22,701 bases of DNA. Source: a bacterium (GTDB taxonomy: Bacteria > CAIJMQ01 > JAADFP01). The stretch is taken from NCBI GenBank assembly GCA_027021085.1, contig JALUVB010000286.1, positions 1 to 22,701 of the forward strand. Direction: 5' to 3'. A program made the translations under genes and the position numbers. This document shows positions 1 to 22,361 of this stretch, in pieces (position 1 is the first letter of the stretch; each line of letters begins with the position of its first letter). The notes beneath the pieces are model-generated. The model saw only the letters and a program-made list of their open reading frames with translations, made no database searches and was not told the origin of the DNA.

Positions 1-1507
1 CGGAAAACCCGCTTTTGAAGTGGGGATTTTCTTCCAGTTTTGAGAAATTGTTATGAGGGAAATCCCCGAACAACTCATTTTTTCTTACGAAAGCAATAAG
101 CCATGCACCCCGGGCAGACATTTGGCTTCTGTAAAGAGAGAGAGCCAGTAGTTTTTCCTGGATTTCCTGCTCTTGTAGGGGGGAGGATTTCCATTCCACC
201 CCCTCTTGCAGGCCAAGAGGTGGTAGTAAAGGAAGCTGGGGATGGTAGTGGAAAGGTGCGGGCCAGAGGCCGTAGTGGGTAAGATAGGGATATACCAGGG
301 GTGGAGGGATTTTCCCTTTAAGATCAAGTAATGCTACTTTTAGGAAACAATAGAGAGCCTGGTGGTCAGAATTCTTATCAGCCGGGTGAGAGACAAATAT
401 TCTGGTGGGTCTGAAATTAACTATAATTTCCTCTAAGTCTTTCAAAATACTTTCCCCGGTATAGGGAGCTTTGTAATGGTAGGCGCCCTGGTAAGGAACA
501 GAGGAGACTCTGTTGAAAATGCTGGTATAGGGTTTCTGCCAGAAAGCCTGCCAGATAGAGAGCGTTCCTCTATCAGGATAGCCCAGGAAGATTAAATCCT
601 TCTTTTTCATCCCAAGCTTTCGCGTACCCAGTATAGCTTCTCTCATGCGCATCTTTCCCATTCTCGTGTAAGCGGAAGGCGCTAAAGCTATTTTTTTCTT
701 ATAAGAAGCAAAAGAGAGGAAATTACTCTCGCCACTGGTAAGGTAAACGATCTTGATGTTTGCTCCTGCTTTTAATGTTTTCTGGATTATTCCGGCACAG
801 GCAATGGTTTCGTCATCGGGATGAGGGGCTAAGATAAGGATGTTCTCGCCCTTTTGGATAGGGGAGAGAAGCGGTAATTCTGAGTACTCGCTTTTATTAA
901 ACGTATCCATGCCCCAGAAAACGGTGTATACTTCAAGTCCTACCAGGTATAATACGGTAATAAGAAAAACTACATGGGCTATCTTAATGGCTTTATCCCA
1001 CGATTTCTTCATCTTCAAAGGCAGGAGGAAAGGGGTCTCTTTCCTGTAATCAAGGTATGCTTCTCCGAACCGCTTTAAAAGAGATTTCTCTTCTACCGGA
1101 ACCGTGTATGAACGAAGGAAAATTAATATGCTGCATACGGAGAATATGAGAAGGGATAAGGAATGAAACAGGAAGGAAAAGCCCACAAAAAGCAGAATGT
1201 AGCCTAAGTATAGCGGGTTACGGCAGTAATTATAGACTCCCGCCTGCACTAATTTCTTTGGCGAGTAATGGGGAATTATGGTGCCTTCTCCTTTCACGGT
1301 GAGGTCCAGGAACGAACGAACTGTCCAGAAAATCCCCAGGCTGACAAATACTACGAAGAAAAAAAGGTTAGCCAGTATTTCAGGCATACCGAAAGGCAAC
1401 CTTTTCTCTACGTAGAAAGAAACCCAGGCAATGGGGACGGGGATAATCAGGTATTGCCAGATGACTCCCAGTATAATAGCCAATCTCTTTTTAAGCTGTT
1501 CTTTCAT
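1..1507 (-). CDS. Fusion of isoprenylcysteine/phospholipid methyltransferase-like membrane domain with PIG-L deacetylase (3' end outside window)
   Basis: The frame is open from the ATG at 1507 to the left edge (502 codons), so the C-terminus is missing. Residues 1-190 resemble the ICMT/PEMT membrane methyltransferase family. Hydrophobic segments lie near 10-32, 43-62, 102-135 and 172-192. The family signature RNPLYLG is at 96-102, followed by EE at 139-140 and a FGEAYLDYRKE stretch that normally closes the SAM-binding site. From about residue 222 the protein becomes a PIG-L (LmbE-type) zinc deacetylase: APHPDDE at 227-233 supplies two metal ligands, and SHPADKNSDH at 373-382 supplies the distal His. 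PIG-L enzymes remove N-acetyl groups from sugars or amino-sugar lipids; the substrate here is unknown. The start overlaps the upstream DUF2062 stop by 17 bp, so translation is probably coupled. Both domain calls are firm; the joint function is inference. Confidence 0.85.
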   Translation of the reverse strand, partial: MKEQLKKRLAIILGVIWQYLIIPVPIAWVSFYVEKRLPFGMPEILANLFFFVVFVSLGIFWTVRSFLDLTVKGEGTIIPHYSPKKLVQAGVYNYCRNPLYLGYILLFVGFSFLFHSLSLLIFSVCSILIFLRSYTVPVEEKSLLKRFGEAYLDYRKETPFLLPLKMKKSWDKAIKIAHVVFLITVLYLVGLEVYTVFWGMDTFNKSEYSELPLLSPIQKGENILILAPHPDDETIACAGIIQKTLKAGANIKIVYLTSGESNFLSFASYKKKIALAPSAYTRMGKMRMREAILGTRKLGMKKKDLIFLGYPDRGTLSIWQAFWQKPYTSIFNRVSSVPYQGAYHYKAPYTGESILKDLEEIIVNFRPTRIFVSHPADKNSDHQALYCFLKVALLDLKGKIPPPLVYPYLTHYGLWPAPFHYHPQLPLLPPLGLQEGVEWKSSPLQEQEIQEKLLALSLYRSQMSARGAWLIAFVRKNELFGDFPHNNFSKLEENPHFKSGFS

Positions 1508-1988
1508 GCACTTTTCCTGTTTTCCTGGTTTTATTAAGAATTAAGAAAGTAAGCGCAAAAGTAATTATACTGCCAATTACTGCCATTATAAAAGACCCTA
1601 TCAATAAGGGCTTGCCGTACATGGGGACTAACTTCCAGCTAAGCACACTGGGGATAGGGATACTTTGTGCTTGCGGGGTACCCTTGTTTATCTCTCCCAG
1701 GAAAACTTCCCCCACTTTGTAAGAAAATAGGTAAACAAGAGGAATAAGCGGGGGGATTCCGGTTACAATACTGCTTCCCAGGTAGGTAAGTAGGAAGCTT
1801 TTTTTAAAAATCTTTGAAAAGATATAATCAAGAACAGTCTGAAACCCCACTGTGGGAGTGAACCCGATGAATACACCAGCGGAAAGAGAAAGGGCTAAAT
1901 CCCTGTTATTGCCTTTAAATTGTGCCAGTTCATGCTGCCACTGAGAACGTATCCAGCCTGCTTTAATTTTATTTAAGATGCTCTTCAA
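1491..1988 (-). CDS. DUF2062 family membrane protein
   Basis: This 165-residue protein has the DUF2062 hallmark near residues 33-50: a Leu/Ser-rich helix running into GVFIGFTPTVGFQ, then a second Gly/Pro-rich hydrophobic stretch (GSSIVTGIPPLIPL). A C-terminal hydrophobic helix follows at about 130-152. Two or three membrane passes are likely. The family has no established biochemical role; members often sit beside glycosyltransferase, deacetylase or lipid/cell-envelope genes, which fits the PIG-L fusion immediately downstream (17-bp overlap). The gap to the EIIA gene upstream is 49 bp and holds AT-rich sequence (TATATT-like) but no convincing separate promoter. Its own SD (GAAGAG) is weak, suggesting translation depends on the operon mRNA. 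The family call is good; the function is not known. Confidence 0.8.
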   Translation of the reverse strand: MKSILNKIKAGWIRSQWQHELAQFKGNNRDLALSLSAGVFIGFTPTVGFQTVLDYIFSKIFKKSFLLTYLGSSIVTGIPPLIPLVYLFSYKVGEVFLGEINKGTPQAQSIPIPSVLSWKLVPMYGKPLLIGSFIMAVIGSIITFALTFLILNKTRKTGKVHERTA

Positions 1989-2037: not shown

Positions 2038-2553
2038 TTATCCCGGAGTAGGGTAGATGGTTCTTCCTTCCTTGAGTTTTACCTTCTCCGGTTTCTCAGA
2101 GCCGATATCAAAACCTTTTATAATCCCCAGAATCTCATGTCTGTTTTCGGATTTTATAAGTGCATCTTTCATCTTCTCATTTTTACAGAGCCTGGCAATT
2201 CTTGCCAGTATCTGGAGGTATTCTTTTTTTATATGAGGAGGAGAGGCTATCATAAAGATTAGATGCACGGGTTTTCCATCCAGGGAATCAAAGTCTACCC
2301 CCTCTTTAGATTTGGCAAAAGCAACCGTTAATCGCTCTACCGTGTCTGAACGGGCATGAGGTATAGCTATCCCTCCTCCGATGGCAGTGCTTTCTATCTC
2401 CTCTCTCGCTTTTACCTCCCCCACAAATTGCTCCACTTCTTTAACTACTCCCGCCTCTTCAAACTTTGCGGTTATCTCGTTGATTACTTCATCTTTTTCT
2501 CTATGTTTCAGCTCATCTATAATTAAATTCTCCCCCATAACTTCTATAAGCAT
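2038..2553 (-). CDS. PTS EIIA-type (PtsN/fructose-family) phosphocarrier, regulatory
   Basis: The 171-residue protein is a single PTS_EIIA type-2 domain. The phospho-accepting His is H66 in IAIPHARSD, preceded by the usual Gly-rich turn (AIGGG). A LIFMIASPP strand and the LQILARIARL helix, typical of the family, follow. A tail of about 20 residues after the domain (ending YPTPG) is extra. No EIIB or EIIC lies nearby, so a regulatory PtsN-like role is more likely than sugar uptake. It is the first gene of a minus-strand operon with DUF2062 and the methyltransferase/PIG-L fusion. The start at 2553 is supported by an AGG-containing SD (GAGGCAGGAA) just upstream; an ATG six codons in is possible but lacks that spacing. 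It is paralogous to the EIIA-CBS protein at 3530-4420, transcribed away from it. Confidence 0.88.
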   Translation of the reverse strand: MLIEVMGENLIIDELKHREKDEVINEITAKFEEAGVVKEVEQFVGEVKAREEIESTAIGGGIAIPHARSDTVERLTVAFAKSKEGVDFDSLDGKPVHLIFMIASPPHIKKEYLQILARIARLCKNEKMKDALIKSENRHEILGIIKGFDIGSEKPEKVKLKEGRTIYPTPG

Positions 2554-3529: not shown

Positions 3530-4420
3530 ATGAAACTTTCCAGTTTTCTTCATCCGCACTTTATTAAAATTAAGCATGGCGCGGCTTCTTCCGAAGAAGT
3601 CATACAGGATTTGGTCAAGGAAATATGCCGGGAATTTTCGCCCGAATTTGAGAAAAAGGTAATAGATCTGATTATGGAAAGAGAAAGACAGGGGCCCACG
3701 GTAGAAAAGGGAGTTTCCATCCCGCATGCCCGTATTGAGGGTTTCCGGGACCTTATAATTGCTATCTCCATACCGGAAAACCCGGTTACCGTGGACGGGG
3801 AAGAAGTAAAGATATTTTTCCTTATTCTCACCTCGAAGACAGCTTCGCGCATTTACCTGAATACCCTTGCGGCCATTGCCCGGCTGGCAAAGAATGGTGA
3901 GCTTCTAAAAAGAATAATTGCTGCTGCGAAACCAGAGGATGTAATAAATATAATTGAAAAAGAAGGTATACAGGTAAAAGAGGAACTTACTGTAAAGGAT
4001 ATAATGGAGAAGAAGTTCCCCGTGGTTGCTCCCGGGGAAACATTAAAGGAAGTTATCGACCTCCTCCACAGAGAAGATTCTCTTTTTGCCCTGGTGGTGG
4101 AGAACGGTGAGCTGACAGGCGAAGTTAGGCTCCTGGAAATAGTGGAAAAGGGGCTCCCTGACTATGCAAAGAGCCTGGTAAACTTAAAATTCTTAAAAAC
4201 TTTTGAGCCCCTGGAAGGGCTCCTGGAAAAAGAGGAGAGGATACGGGTCAGGGAAGTCATGTCTCCTTTAAGCGTAACCCTAACTCCTTCCTCTTCCATT
4301 GTAGAAGCTGTGGTAAGGATGGTAAAGGAAAAACGTTTTTATATTCCTGTAGTAGAAGATAAAAAACCAGTAGGTGTGGTAACACTCAAAGAGTTTGTCA
4401 CGCGTATCCTTAGAGTATAA
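3530..4420 (+). CDS. PTS EIIA domain fused to a CBS-domain pair
   Basis: The 296-residue protein has an N-terminal EIIA type-2 domain (about 1-145) with the phospho-acceptor H66 in VSIPHARIE. A C-terminal pair of CBS repeats begins at about 152 (LTVKDIMEKKFPVV...) and 238 (IRVREVMSPLSVTL...). CBS pairs commonly bind adenosine nucleotides or c-di-AMP and gate transporters or enzymes; EIIA domains report PTS phosphorylation state. The combination therefore suggests a regulator integrating phosphate flux and nucleotide level. The gene lies 6 bp before a membrane transporter, whose regulation is the obvious candidate role (inference). No EIIB/EIIC partner is present. The start at 3530 follows a GGAGGGTAGGGG stretch. 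It resembles the EIIA at 2038-2553 around the active-site His but not in its C-terminal half. Confidence 0.88.
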   Translation: MKLSSFLHPHFIKIKHGAASSEEVIQDLVKEICREFSPEFEKKVIDLIMERERQGPTVEKGVSIPHARIEGFRDLIIAISIPENPVTVDGEEVKIFFLILTSKTASRIYLNTLAAIARLAKNGELLKRIIAAAKPEDVINIIEKEGIQVKEELTVKDIMEKKFPVVAPGETLKEVIDLLHREDSLFALVVENGELTGEVRLLEIVEKGLPDYAKSLVNLKFLKTFEPLEGLLEKEERIRVREVMSPLSVTLTPSSSIVEAVVRMVKEKRFYIPVVEDKKPVGVVTLKEFVTRILRV

Positions 4421-4426
4421 CTTGTA

Positions 4427-5713
4427 ATGTCCTTTTTGCTGATTGTCGGAATAATCATATTTGTTGCGGTTTACATTACCATAATATCAGATAAGGTACA
4501 TCGTACCATTGTGGCTGTCCTGGGCGGCATGCTGATGATTAGCCTCAGGATTGTGCCCAAGGCAAAAGCTTTCCATTATGTTGACTGGAACGTAATCTTT
4601 CTATTGATAGGCATGATGATTCTGGTGGGAGCAATACAGAGGACAGGTCTTCTGCAGTACATGGCTATTAAAGGGGCAAAGATTGCCCGGGGTAATCCAT
4701 ACGTTACCATGAGTTTACTCATCCTGATTACAGCCCTGTTTTCTGCCTTTCTGGATAATGTTACCACAGTAGTACTCATTGCCCCGGTAAGTATTCTTAT
4801 TGCAGTAGAGCTGGGCATTTCTCCCGTTCCCTTCCTCATTTCCGAAGCTCTTGCCTCCAACGTGGGTGGTACGGCTACCTTAATAGGGGATCCTCCTAAC
4901 ATAATAATCGGGAGTGCGGCAAACCTGGGGTTCATGGATTTTATCAAGAACATGACCCCCCCCGTAGTTCTTATGATTCTTCTCCTGCCTATCATTATGA
5001 AGTGGATGATGGGGAAAAAGATGGTGGTAAGCTACGAAAGAAAAGCCAGAATCATGGAGTTTGATACTTCCCAGATAATCGAGGACCCCGTACTGCTGAA
5101 AAAATCCCTGATTATCTTTTCCCTGGTGATAATCGGGTTTTTCATACATTCCCTTATAGACGTGGATGTTTCCGTTATAGCTATGTTGGGTGCTTTCTTC
5201 CTGCTTCTTATCCTTAAAGACCAGAGAAAAATGTTAAGGGAATTGCTCAGCCAGATTGAATGGACTACCCTCTTCTTCTTCATGGGCTTTTTTATCATGG
5301 TGGGCGGCTTGTTAGAATTGGGAGTAATCGACAGGATTTCCTATAAATTGTTTGCCCTCTTTAAAAACAACCTTTCCCTGGCCTCCCTCTCCATCCTGTG
5401 GTCTTCGGGCATCCTCTCTTCCATTCTTGATAATATCCCTTTTGTTACCACCATGACCCCGGTGGTTAAGGCGCTGGGAGCCCAGTGGGGTGCACAAACG
5501 ATACTTCCCATATGGTGGTCACTGGCGCTGGGAGCCTGCCTGGGCGGGAATATGACCCTGATAGGTGCAGCAGCCAACGTGGTAGTGGCGGACATCTCGG
5601 AAAGAAACGGTTACACTATAAATTTCTGGGAATTTGCCAGGTACGGTGCCGTGGTAACCTTTGTCAACCTTTTTATATCTTCCGTTTACGTATGGTTAAG
5701 GTATCTCCGCTGA
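4427..5713 (+). CDS. ArsB/NhaD-type ion transporter (CitMHS/SLC13-like permease)
   Basis: A 428-residue polytopic membrane protein with roughly 10-12 hydrophobic segments. It has the two inverted-repeat signatures of the ion-transporter superfamily: FLDNVTTVVLIAP (D110-N111) with NVGGTATLIGDPPN (145-158), and ILDNIPFVTTMTP (D335-N336) with GGNMTLIGAAAN (373-384). These re-entrant loops form the substrate/cation site in ArsB, NhaD and DASS carriers. No arsenate-operon genes (arsC, arsR) are nearby, so a Na+/H+ or organic-anion role is as likely as arsenite export. The soluble loop near 195-225 is charged. The gene follows the EIIA-CBS regulator by 6 bp with only a weak SD, implying translational coupling. 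Its last 22 bp overlap tilS. The family is sure; the substrate is not. Confidence 0.85.
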   Translation: MSFLLIVGIIIFVAVYITIISDKVHRTIVAVLGGMLMISLRIVPKAKAFHYVDWNVIFLLIGMMILVGAIQRTGLLQYMAIKGAKIARGNPYVTMSLLILITALFSAFLDNVTTVVLIAPVSILIAVELGISPVPFLISEALASNVGGTATLIGDPPNIIIGSAANLGFMDFIKNMTPPVVLMILLLPIIMKWMMGKKMVVSYERKARIMEFDTSQIIEDPVLLKKSLIIFSLVIIGFFIHSLIDVDVSVIAMLGAFFLLLILKDQRKMLRELLSQIEWTTLFFFMGFFIMVGGLLELGVIDRISYKLFALFKNNLSLASLSILWSSGILSSILDNIPFVTTMTPVVKALGAQWGAQTILPIWWSLALGACLGGNMTLIGAAANVVVADISERNGYTINFWEFARYGAVVTFVNLFISSVYVWLRYLR

Positions 5714-21566: not shown

Positions 21567-22361
21567 ATGAGAGTAGTGATAAGAAAGGATTACGAGGCAA
21601 TGTCTAAGACCGCGGCAGAAATAGTGGCCAGGCTGGTAAGGAGCAAACCTGATTGTGTCCTGGGGCTGGCCACGGGCAGCACTCCGGTGGGGCTTTACCA
21701 GGAACTTGCCCGCATGTGCAAGGAAGAAGGGCTGGATTTTTCCCGGGTAACCACGTTCAACCTGGACGAATACTTTGGCCTTTCTCCGGACCATCCCCAG
21801 AGTTATCGTTACTTCATGAATGATAACCTGTTCAACCACATCAACATAAAAAAGGAAAATACGCATGTGCCGGACGGCACGGTAAGTTTAGACAAGGTAG
21901 AAGAATTCTGCGCGAGTTACGAGAAGATGATAAAAGAAGCAGGCGGAATAGACCTGCAAGTGTTGGGGATAGGTGGAGACGGCCACATTGCATTCAATGA
22001 ACCGGGCTCTTCTCTTGCTTCTCGCACCAGGCTCATAGCCCTGGAAGAACAAACTCGTATAGACAACGCAAGATTTTTCGATTCCCTGGATGAAGTGCCC
22101 CGCGCGGCTCTCAGCATGGGAGTGGGGACTATTCTCGAAGCCAAATGTTGCCTCTTCCTGGCCAACGGCAGAAAAAAGGCAGGCGTGGTAGCAGAGAGTA
22201 TCGAAGGCCCGATTACCAGCCAGATTACTGCTTCTGCCCTGCAACTTCACCCAAATACCATAGCCATAATAGAAGAAGAAGCAGCCAGCGAGCTGAAGAG
22301 AAAAGAGTACTACCTTTACGCAGAAAAGATGTGGAAAGAACTCGGCAAGAGCATGATTTAG
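21567..22361 (+). CDS. nagB: Glucosamine-6-phosphate deaminase NagB
   Basis: NagB converts glucosamine-6-phosphate to fructose-6-phosphate and ammonia, feeding amino sugars into glycolysis. The 264-residue protein has the substrate loop GLATGSTPVGLYQEL (33-47), the catalytic FNLDEYFGL with D67, and GIGGDGHIAFNEPGSSL containing D138, H140 and E145 (equivalent to E. coli D141, H143 and E148). SRTR (152-155) and the C-terminal SALQLHPN segment complete the family pattern. The length is normal. The AAGGAGG SD lies 8 bp before the ATG at 21567. It is transcribed from its own promoter and flanked by repeat arrays on both sides. The next gene, cut by the window edge, is 266 bp away. Confidence 0.97.
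   Translation: MRVVIRKDYEAMSKTAAEIVARLVRSKPDCVLGLATGSTPVGLYQELARMCKEEGLDFSRVTTFNLDEYFGLSPDHPQSYRYFMNDNLFNHINIKKENTHVPDGTVSLDKVEEFCASYEKMIKEAGGIDLQVLGIGGDGHIAFNEPGSSLASRTRLIALEEQTRIDNARFFDSLDEVPRAALSMGVGTILEAKCCLFLANGRKKAGVVAESIEGPITSQITASALQLHPNTIAIIEEEAASELKRKEYYLYAEKMWKELGKSMI

Follow-up and report, generated by a model that had tools for sequence, protein, structure and literature searches.

In Francisella, through NaxD/FlmK, and in the Arn modification of lipid A, the envelope becomes cationic when a lipid-linked amino sugar is deacetylated or deformylated. The best-known enzymes of the PIG-L family face the cytoplasm, and we know of no substrate for most exported PIG-L proteins nor for most bacterial ICMT/PEMT-like methyltransferases. 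The PIG-L enzymes characterised so far cleave N-acyl-glucosamine cores, and the LmbE-like metal site is defined as an HxD1D2 motif with a distal histidine, that is two histidines and one aspartate, D1 being the general base (PMC4101496). In P. aeruginosa GpgSD carries out glycolipid N-deacetylation, and its GpgD component belongs to COG3233 and is predicted to be cytoplasmic (PMC12713373). Here we describe a gene that, in an uncultured bacterium, joins a methyltransferase and a PIG-L deacetylase in one protein, within a window of 22,701 nucleotides that makes up an entire contig (G000:C286). Its domains and upstream neighbours are as follows.

2-1507, minus strand: fusion gene encoding methyltransferase, extra transmembrane helix and PIG-L deacetylase (502 codons, 3' end past the contig)
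1019-1483, minus strand: PEMT/ICMT-type methyltransferase domain (residues about 9-163; Pfam PEMT/ICMT above cut-off, match to PDB 4A2N)
914-988, minus strand: extra transmembrane helix (residues about 174-198; hydropathy and charge)
38-850, minus strand: PIG-L/LmbE deacetylase domain (residues about 220-490; Pfam PIG-L, E-value 1.3e-23)
1491-1988, minus strand: DUF2062 membrane protein (Pfam; 17-base overlap with the start of the fusion gene)
2038-2553, minus strand: PTS EIIA_2 protein of the fructose/nitrogen type (E-value 3e-36; upstream of the fusion gene)

The fusion frame starts with an ATG at 1507 and runs without a stop over 502 codons, for which the random probability at the local G+C content is about 3e-13. 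It is still open at the contig edge and is therefore cut at its 3' end. An earlier note on this DNA had proposed that a single open frame joins the two enzymes, and indeed the Pfam domains of both are found above cut-off on the minus strand; the domains were correctly described, but with the 3' end cut off the note could not see a C-terminal domain of about 140 residues. This domain became apparent from a congeneric species, one of whose contigs (JAADFP010000135.1, ‘Caldisericota bacterium’; L002) encodes the same fusion at 86% identity in a single frame of 571 codons, likewise open at its end. The last 28 bases of this contig are identical to the first 28 of G001:C111 (L090), a second contig from that genome, on which the frame stays open for another 71 residues before it meets a stop. 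We infer from this overlap that the two contigs join, in agreement with the order of their matches to the PIG-L protein of a sister family (G005). The joined congener protein would have about 642 residues; the roughly 140 that the window protein lacks form a C-terminal domain similar to the one of stand-alone PIG-L relatives. No convincing Pfam family was found for this domain at E-values up to 1, and the domain was not found elsewhere in the window genome. Comparison of the window and congener genes gave a dN/dS of 0.076 for the whole fusion; taken separately, the methyltransferase part has 0.087 and the PIG-L part 0.055, and both halves are under purifying selection. The gene is thus a real and conserved fusion of two known enzyme families, restricted to one lineage.

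The PIG-L half (PF02585, residues 224-389) scores 84.3 bits at an E-value of 1.3e-23, against a gathering score of 28.2. It carries the metal-site motifs H229-P-D231-D232 and D381-H382, and H229, D231, D232 and H382 provide the HxDD and distal histidine of the family definition; the spacer between D232 and H382 is 149 residues, one above the range of 97-148 given in PMC4101496. H229, D231, D232, R287, D377, D381, H382 and H411 are invariant in 8 homologues, among them the three residues (H229, D232 and H382) for which a conservation check had been proposed. LmbE-type deacetylases are the best solved relatives of this half, and a profile of PIG-L relatives matches the diacetylchitobiose deacetylase, TT1542, BshB-like and MshB structures (PDB 8BGN, 1UAN, 2IXD and 1Q74). 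The equivalog cut-offs of the bacillithiol and mycothiol deacetylases were missed by far (TIGR04001, 37.2 versus 182.5; TIGR03445, 21.1 versus 224.35). The PIG-L half would hydrolyse an N-acetylglucosamine-type substrate with one catalytic metal ion if it acts as its family does. The window genome also encodes a second, simple PIG-L protein within a glycosyltransferase cluster (L096 1699-2412; G000:C64).

The methyltransferase half matches Pfam PEMT over residues 53-149 (E-value 5.8e-9, 36.8 bits versus a gathering score of 25) and ICMT (PF04140; 2.8e-6, 28.1 bits versus 24), and its best solved relative is the archaeal ICMT 4A2N (8e-9 across residues 21-163). Its motifs are RNPLYLG (96-102), EE (139-140) and FGxxYxxY (147-154). 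R96, P98, E139, E140, F147, G148, Y151 and Y154 are invariant in all four members of the methyltransferase subfamily; Y100 is replaced by tryptophan in one of them (G212). All residues named in the earlier note, namely R96 in RNPLY, E139/E140, H229, D232 and H382, were located where it had placed them, and its suggestion to check R96 and E139/E140 for conservation was borne out across the four subfamily members. The cut-off for protein-S-isoprenylcysteine O-methyltransferase (NF040696) was missed with 47.7 bits versus 160, and that for the lipid A 1-phosphate methyltransferase LmtA (TIGR04571) with 31.7 versus 325. This half would probably carry out SAM-dependent methylation at the cytoplasmic face of the membrane. 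Elsewhere, in two distantly related genomes, the fusion partner of a PEMT/ICMT-type methyltransferase is a PlsC-like acyltransferase (PF01553), with a tail that resembles a zinc ribbon (L059 601-2406 in G315 and L092 840-2411 in G329); the two proteins are 26% identical.

How the two halves are placed relative to the membrane bears directly on what the protein could do. Hydropathy scored the 36-residue hydrophobic stretch 100-135 as one segment. The known ICMT fold has a hairpin at the corresponding stretch, and if this were also the case here the methyltransferase part would comprise four helices, placing its basic N terminus and the basic loop after residue 163 inside. The extra helix (about 174-198) has a basic N side (LKMKKSWDKAIK; five positive and one negative charge) and an acidic C side (one positive and three negative). 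The N terminus and methyltransferase site would then be in the cytoplasm, where SAM is, and the helix would cross outward and tether the deacetylase, with the C-terminal domain, on the outside of the inner membrane. Most stand-alone PIG-L relatives start with a single hydrophobic segment after lysine or arginine, as an exported or anchored protein would. Because of this positive-inside charge bias and the signal anchors of most stand-alone relatives, the deacetylase is most likely external and the methyltransferase site cytoplasmic, on opposite faces of the membrane. The basis of this topology is hydropathy and charge only; an AlphaFold2 model built from a two-sequence alignment (mean pLDDT 39) was discarded. 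LpxC is present in both fusion genomes (G000 and G001), in the sister family (G005) and in G212, so an envelope with lipid A, which could contain substrates of this kind, is likely. Taken together the data point to an inner-membrane protein with two functions in a diderm bacterium, an outer-face deacetylase and lipid methylation on the inner side, a reading that we consider rather probable. The earlier note had proposed a membrane-anchored enzyme that deacetylates and possibly methylates one lipid-linked amino sugar; the anchoring and the fusion of two enzymes hold, but a substrate common to both halves does not follow and would need flipping, because the active sites are predicted on opposite faces.

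The fusion was found in one genus only. Its architecture had been described as non-standard and we detected none outside this genus in about 395 sampled genomes, nor a record covering 80% of it, or of the methyltransferase-CE4 protein described below, among 72,556 plasmids; our literature searches for a methyltransferase-PIG-L architecture found no description. The PIG-L subfamily itself occurs at E-values below 1e-30 in about 25 of 386 sampled genomes and is joined to a methyltransferase in none outside the genus (a second survey of 386 genomes largely overlapped this sample and adds little). At an E-value of 0.001, neither half had a match in four further genomes of the phylum. In G005 the closest relatives of both halves are separate genes on different contigs, so the fusion is lineage-specific. 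The PIG-L protein there has 467 residues, with an N-terminal hydrophobic segment and 44% identity to the PIG-L half, and the methyltransferase (207 residues, 41% identity) already ends in the extra helix. The fusion probably arose from a methyltransferase already bearing this C-terminal helix, which took the place of the signal anchor in an exported PIG-L protein that had stood alone.

A profile built from the four methyltransferase subfamily members found only one other close relative, that of G212:C27 (E-value 1.4e-94; the next is at 9.5e-26), a gap that is partly by construction as this sequence was among the four. This genome belongs to another phylum; its fusion protein (L047 8-1234) continues after the methyltransferase and the same extra helix into a CE4/NodB polysaccharide deacetylase (PF01522, E-value 1.4e-35, motif TFDDGP), an enzyme type that commonly occurs outside the cytoplasm. 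Towards its 3' end (about 1150-1234) the CE4 domain appears to slip frame, whether by sequencing error or in reality; the junction is clean. G212 also carries a separate PIG-L subfamily gene, adjoining a PMT/ArnT-type membrane glycosyltransferase and a two-component system. Thus both genomes in which the methyltransferase is not fused to PIG-L, G005 and G212, carry the PIG-L subfamily, for which the probability by chance is near 0.004, calculated from the above frequency for two genomes and hence for a very small sample.

The parallel fusions to PIG-L and CE4 hint that methylation and deacetylation belong together. One way in which they might is as two steps on one carrier, in which a polyprenyl- or lipid-linked amino sugar (or phosphate) would be methylated inside and flipped before PIG-L removes the N-acetyl group outside. 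The joining of one methyltransferase subfamily to two unrelated deacetylases fits this scheme, as do the co-occurrence with an otherwise sparse PIG-L subfamily and a distant resemblance, below cut-off, to the NCBIfam family of LmtA, which methylates lipid A phosphate. Yet only two genomes are informative, neither a flippase nor a glycosyltransferase was found adjoining the fusion, and the opposite-face topology rules out direct coupling, so that we regard a shared carrier as possible but not as the expected outcome. Going one step further, we may speculate about a two-sided envelope enzyme class, in which one methyltransferase subfamily was twice independently joined via the same helix to unrelated outer-face deacetylases because internal lipid methylation and external amino-sugar deacetylation both belong to a single, as yet undescribed pathway of a glycolipid or lipid carrier; this we hold to be unlikely.

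Two further readings, both of them quite doubtful, would remove one side of the bifunctional inner-membrane protein. The methyltransferase half could be only an anchor that tethers a secreted deacetylase, its catalysis irrelevant or lost, since the stand-alone PIG-L relatives need just a signal anchor and the extra helix takes its place; but a mere anchor would need neither the invariance of the motif residues in all four subfamily members nor the dN/dS of 0.087. Equally doubtful is a cytoplasmic PIG-L domain, in which case both sites would face the cytoplasm and the precursor would be UDP- or lipid-linked, as it is for BshB, MshB and eukaryotic PIG-L. The cytoplasmic orientation of the best-known PIG-L enzymes speaks for it, and the family is not uniformly exported: in two Thermus-type relatives the domain is preceded by two helices and basic residues and looks cytoplasmic. 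Moreover, in 7 of 17 loci inspected (L033, L049, L050, L051, L052, L056 and L006) a related GNAT gene (Pfam Acetyltransf_1) lies directly beside the PIG-L gene; in five of these pairs both genes point the same way, almost or entirely without a gap. This arrangement suggests that acetylation and deacetylation are paired in the wider PIG-L subfamily. GNAT acetyltransferases use a cytoplasmic donor, which counts against an outer-face deacetylase, as does the lack of a match to this partner in G000 and G001. A cytoplasmic PIG-L domain is at odds with the biased charges flanking helix 174-198 and with the lone hydrophobic segment at the N terminus of most relatives. Finally, an artefact of assembly or sequencing, to which the frame stopping at the contig edge and the separate genes of G005 could be taken to point, is highly improbable and refuted by the same fusion on an independent congener contig: with this recurrence, and with low dN/dS across a junction without stop or frame slip, there is no sequencing error, and homologues are not always split, as the earlier note had considered, but fused in the congener and split outside the genus.

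The upstream neighbours DUF2062 and EIIA were correctly recognised in the earlier note, as Pfam confirmed. The order EIIA, DUF2062, fusion is the same in the window and the congener, where the overlap of DUF2062 and fusion is 4 bases, and is not kept in G005. An EIIA_2-CBS protein is encoded directly before a CitMHS/ArsB-type transporter in the window (3530-5713), and in the congener the fusion is followed by a Na+/H+ exchanger gene. EIIA may thus regulate ion transport, which fits at least as well as envelope control; with this setting and the loss of the order in G005, the proposed PTS-controlled envelope or glycolipid modification appears weak. The same contig also holds a glucosamine-6-phosphate deaminase-type gene (21567-22361; PF01182).

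The most likely role of the bifunctional inner-membrane protein, with substrates inferred, would be envelope amino-sugar deacetylation outside the inner membrane together with lipid methylation inside. The deacetylase would remove the N-acetyl group from an envelope glycan or glycolipid containing GlcNAc or GalNAc, leaving a positively charged amine. On the cytoplasmic side the methyltransferase half would probably still methylate a lipid, which may be the one that carries or accepts this glycan. The fusion and the parallel CE4 fusion are independent evidence that this type of methyltransferase works alongside envelope amino-sugar deacetylation, which narrows the substrate search for both enzyme families. 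A third partner open to testing is the GNAT gene that lies next to the PIG-L subfamily gene in several lineages.

Compared with known systems, the fusion shares the RNP.Y, EE and FGxxYxxY motifs of its methyltransferase half with archaeal ICMT 4A2N, LmtA and MddA (PF04191/PF04140), but lies far under the NCBIfam equivalog cut-offs for LmtA, MddA and prenylcysteine methyltransferase and differs from known PEMT/ICMT enzymes by the additional C-terminal helix and the fused deacetylase. The HxDD and distal DH residues are common to the PIG-L/LmbE family, including MshB, BshB, diacetylchitobiose deacetylase, TT1542 and teicoplanin deacetylase, whereas all NCBIfam PIG-L equivalogs are far from cut-off. 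Known PIG-L members are soluble or simply anchored; in the fusion, a methyltransferase and a helix precede the domain, and there is an additional domain at the C terminus. With its methyltransferase the G212 protein falls into the same subfamily (35% identical across 179 residues, into the extra helix), but its NodB/CE4 deacetylase is unrelated to PIG-L. GpgSD, NaxD/FlmK and the Arn pathways resemble the proposed role of the fusion in that they remove an acetyl or formyl group from a lipid-linked amino sugar and so make the envelope cationic; unlike the fusion, none of them has PIG-L joined to a methyltransferase.
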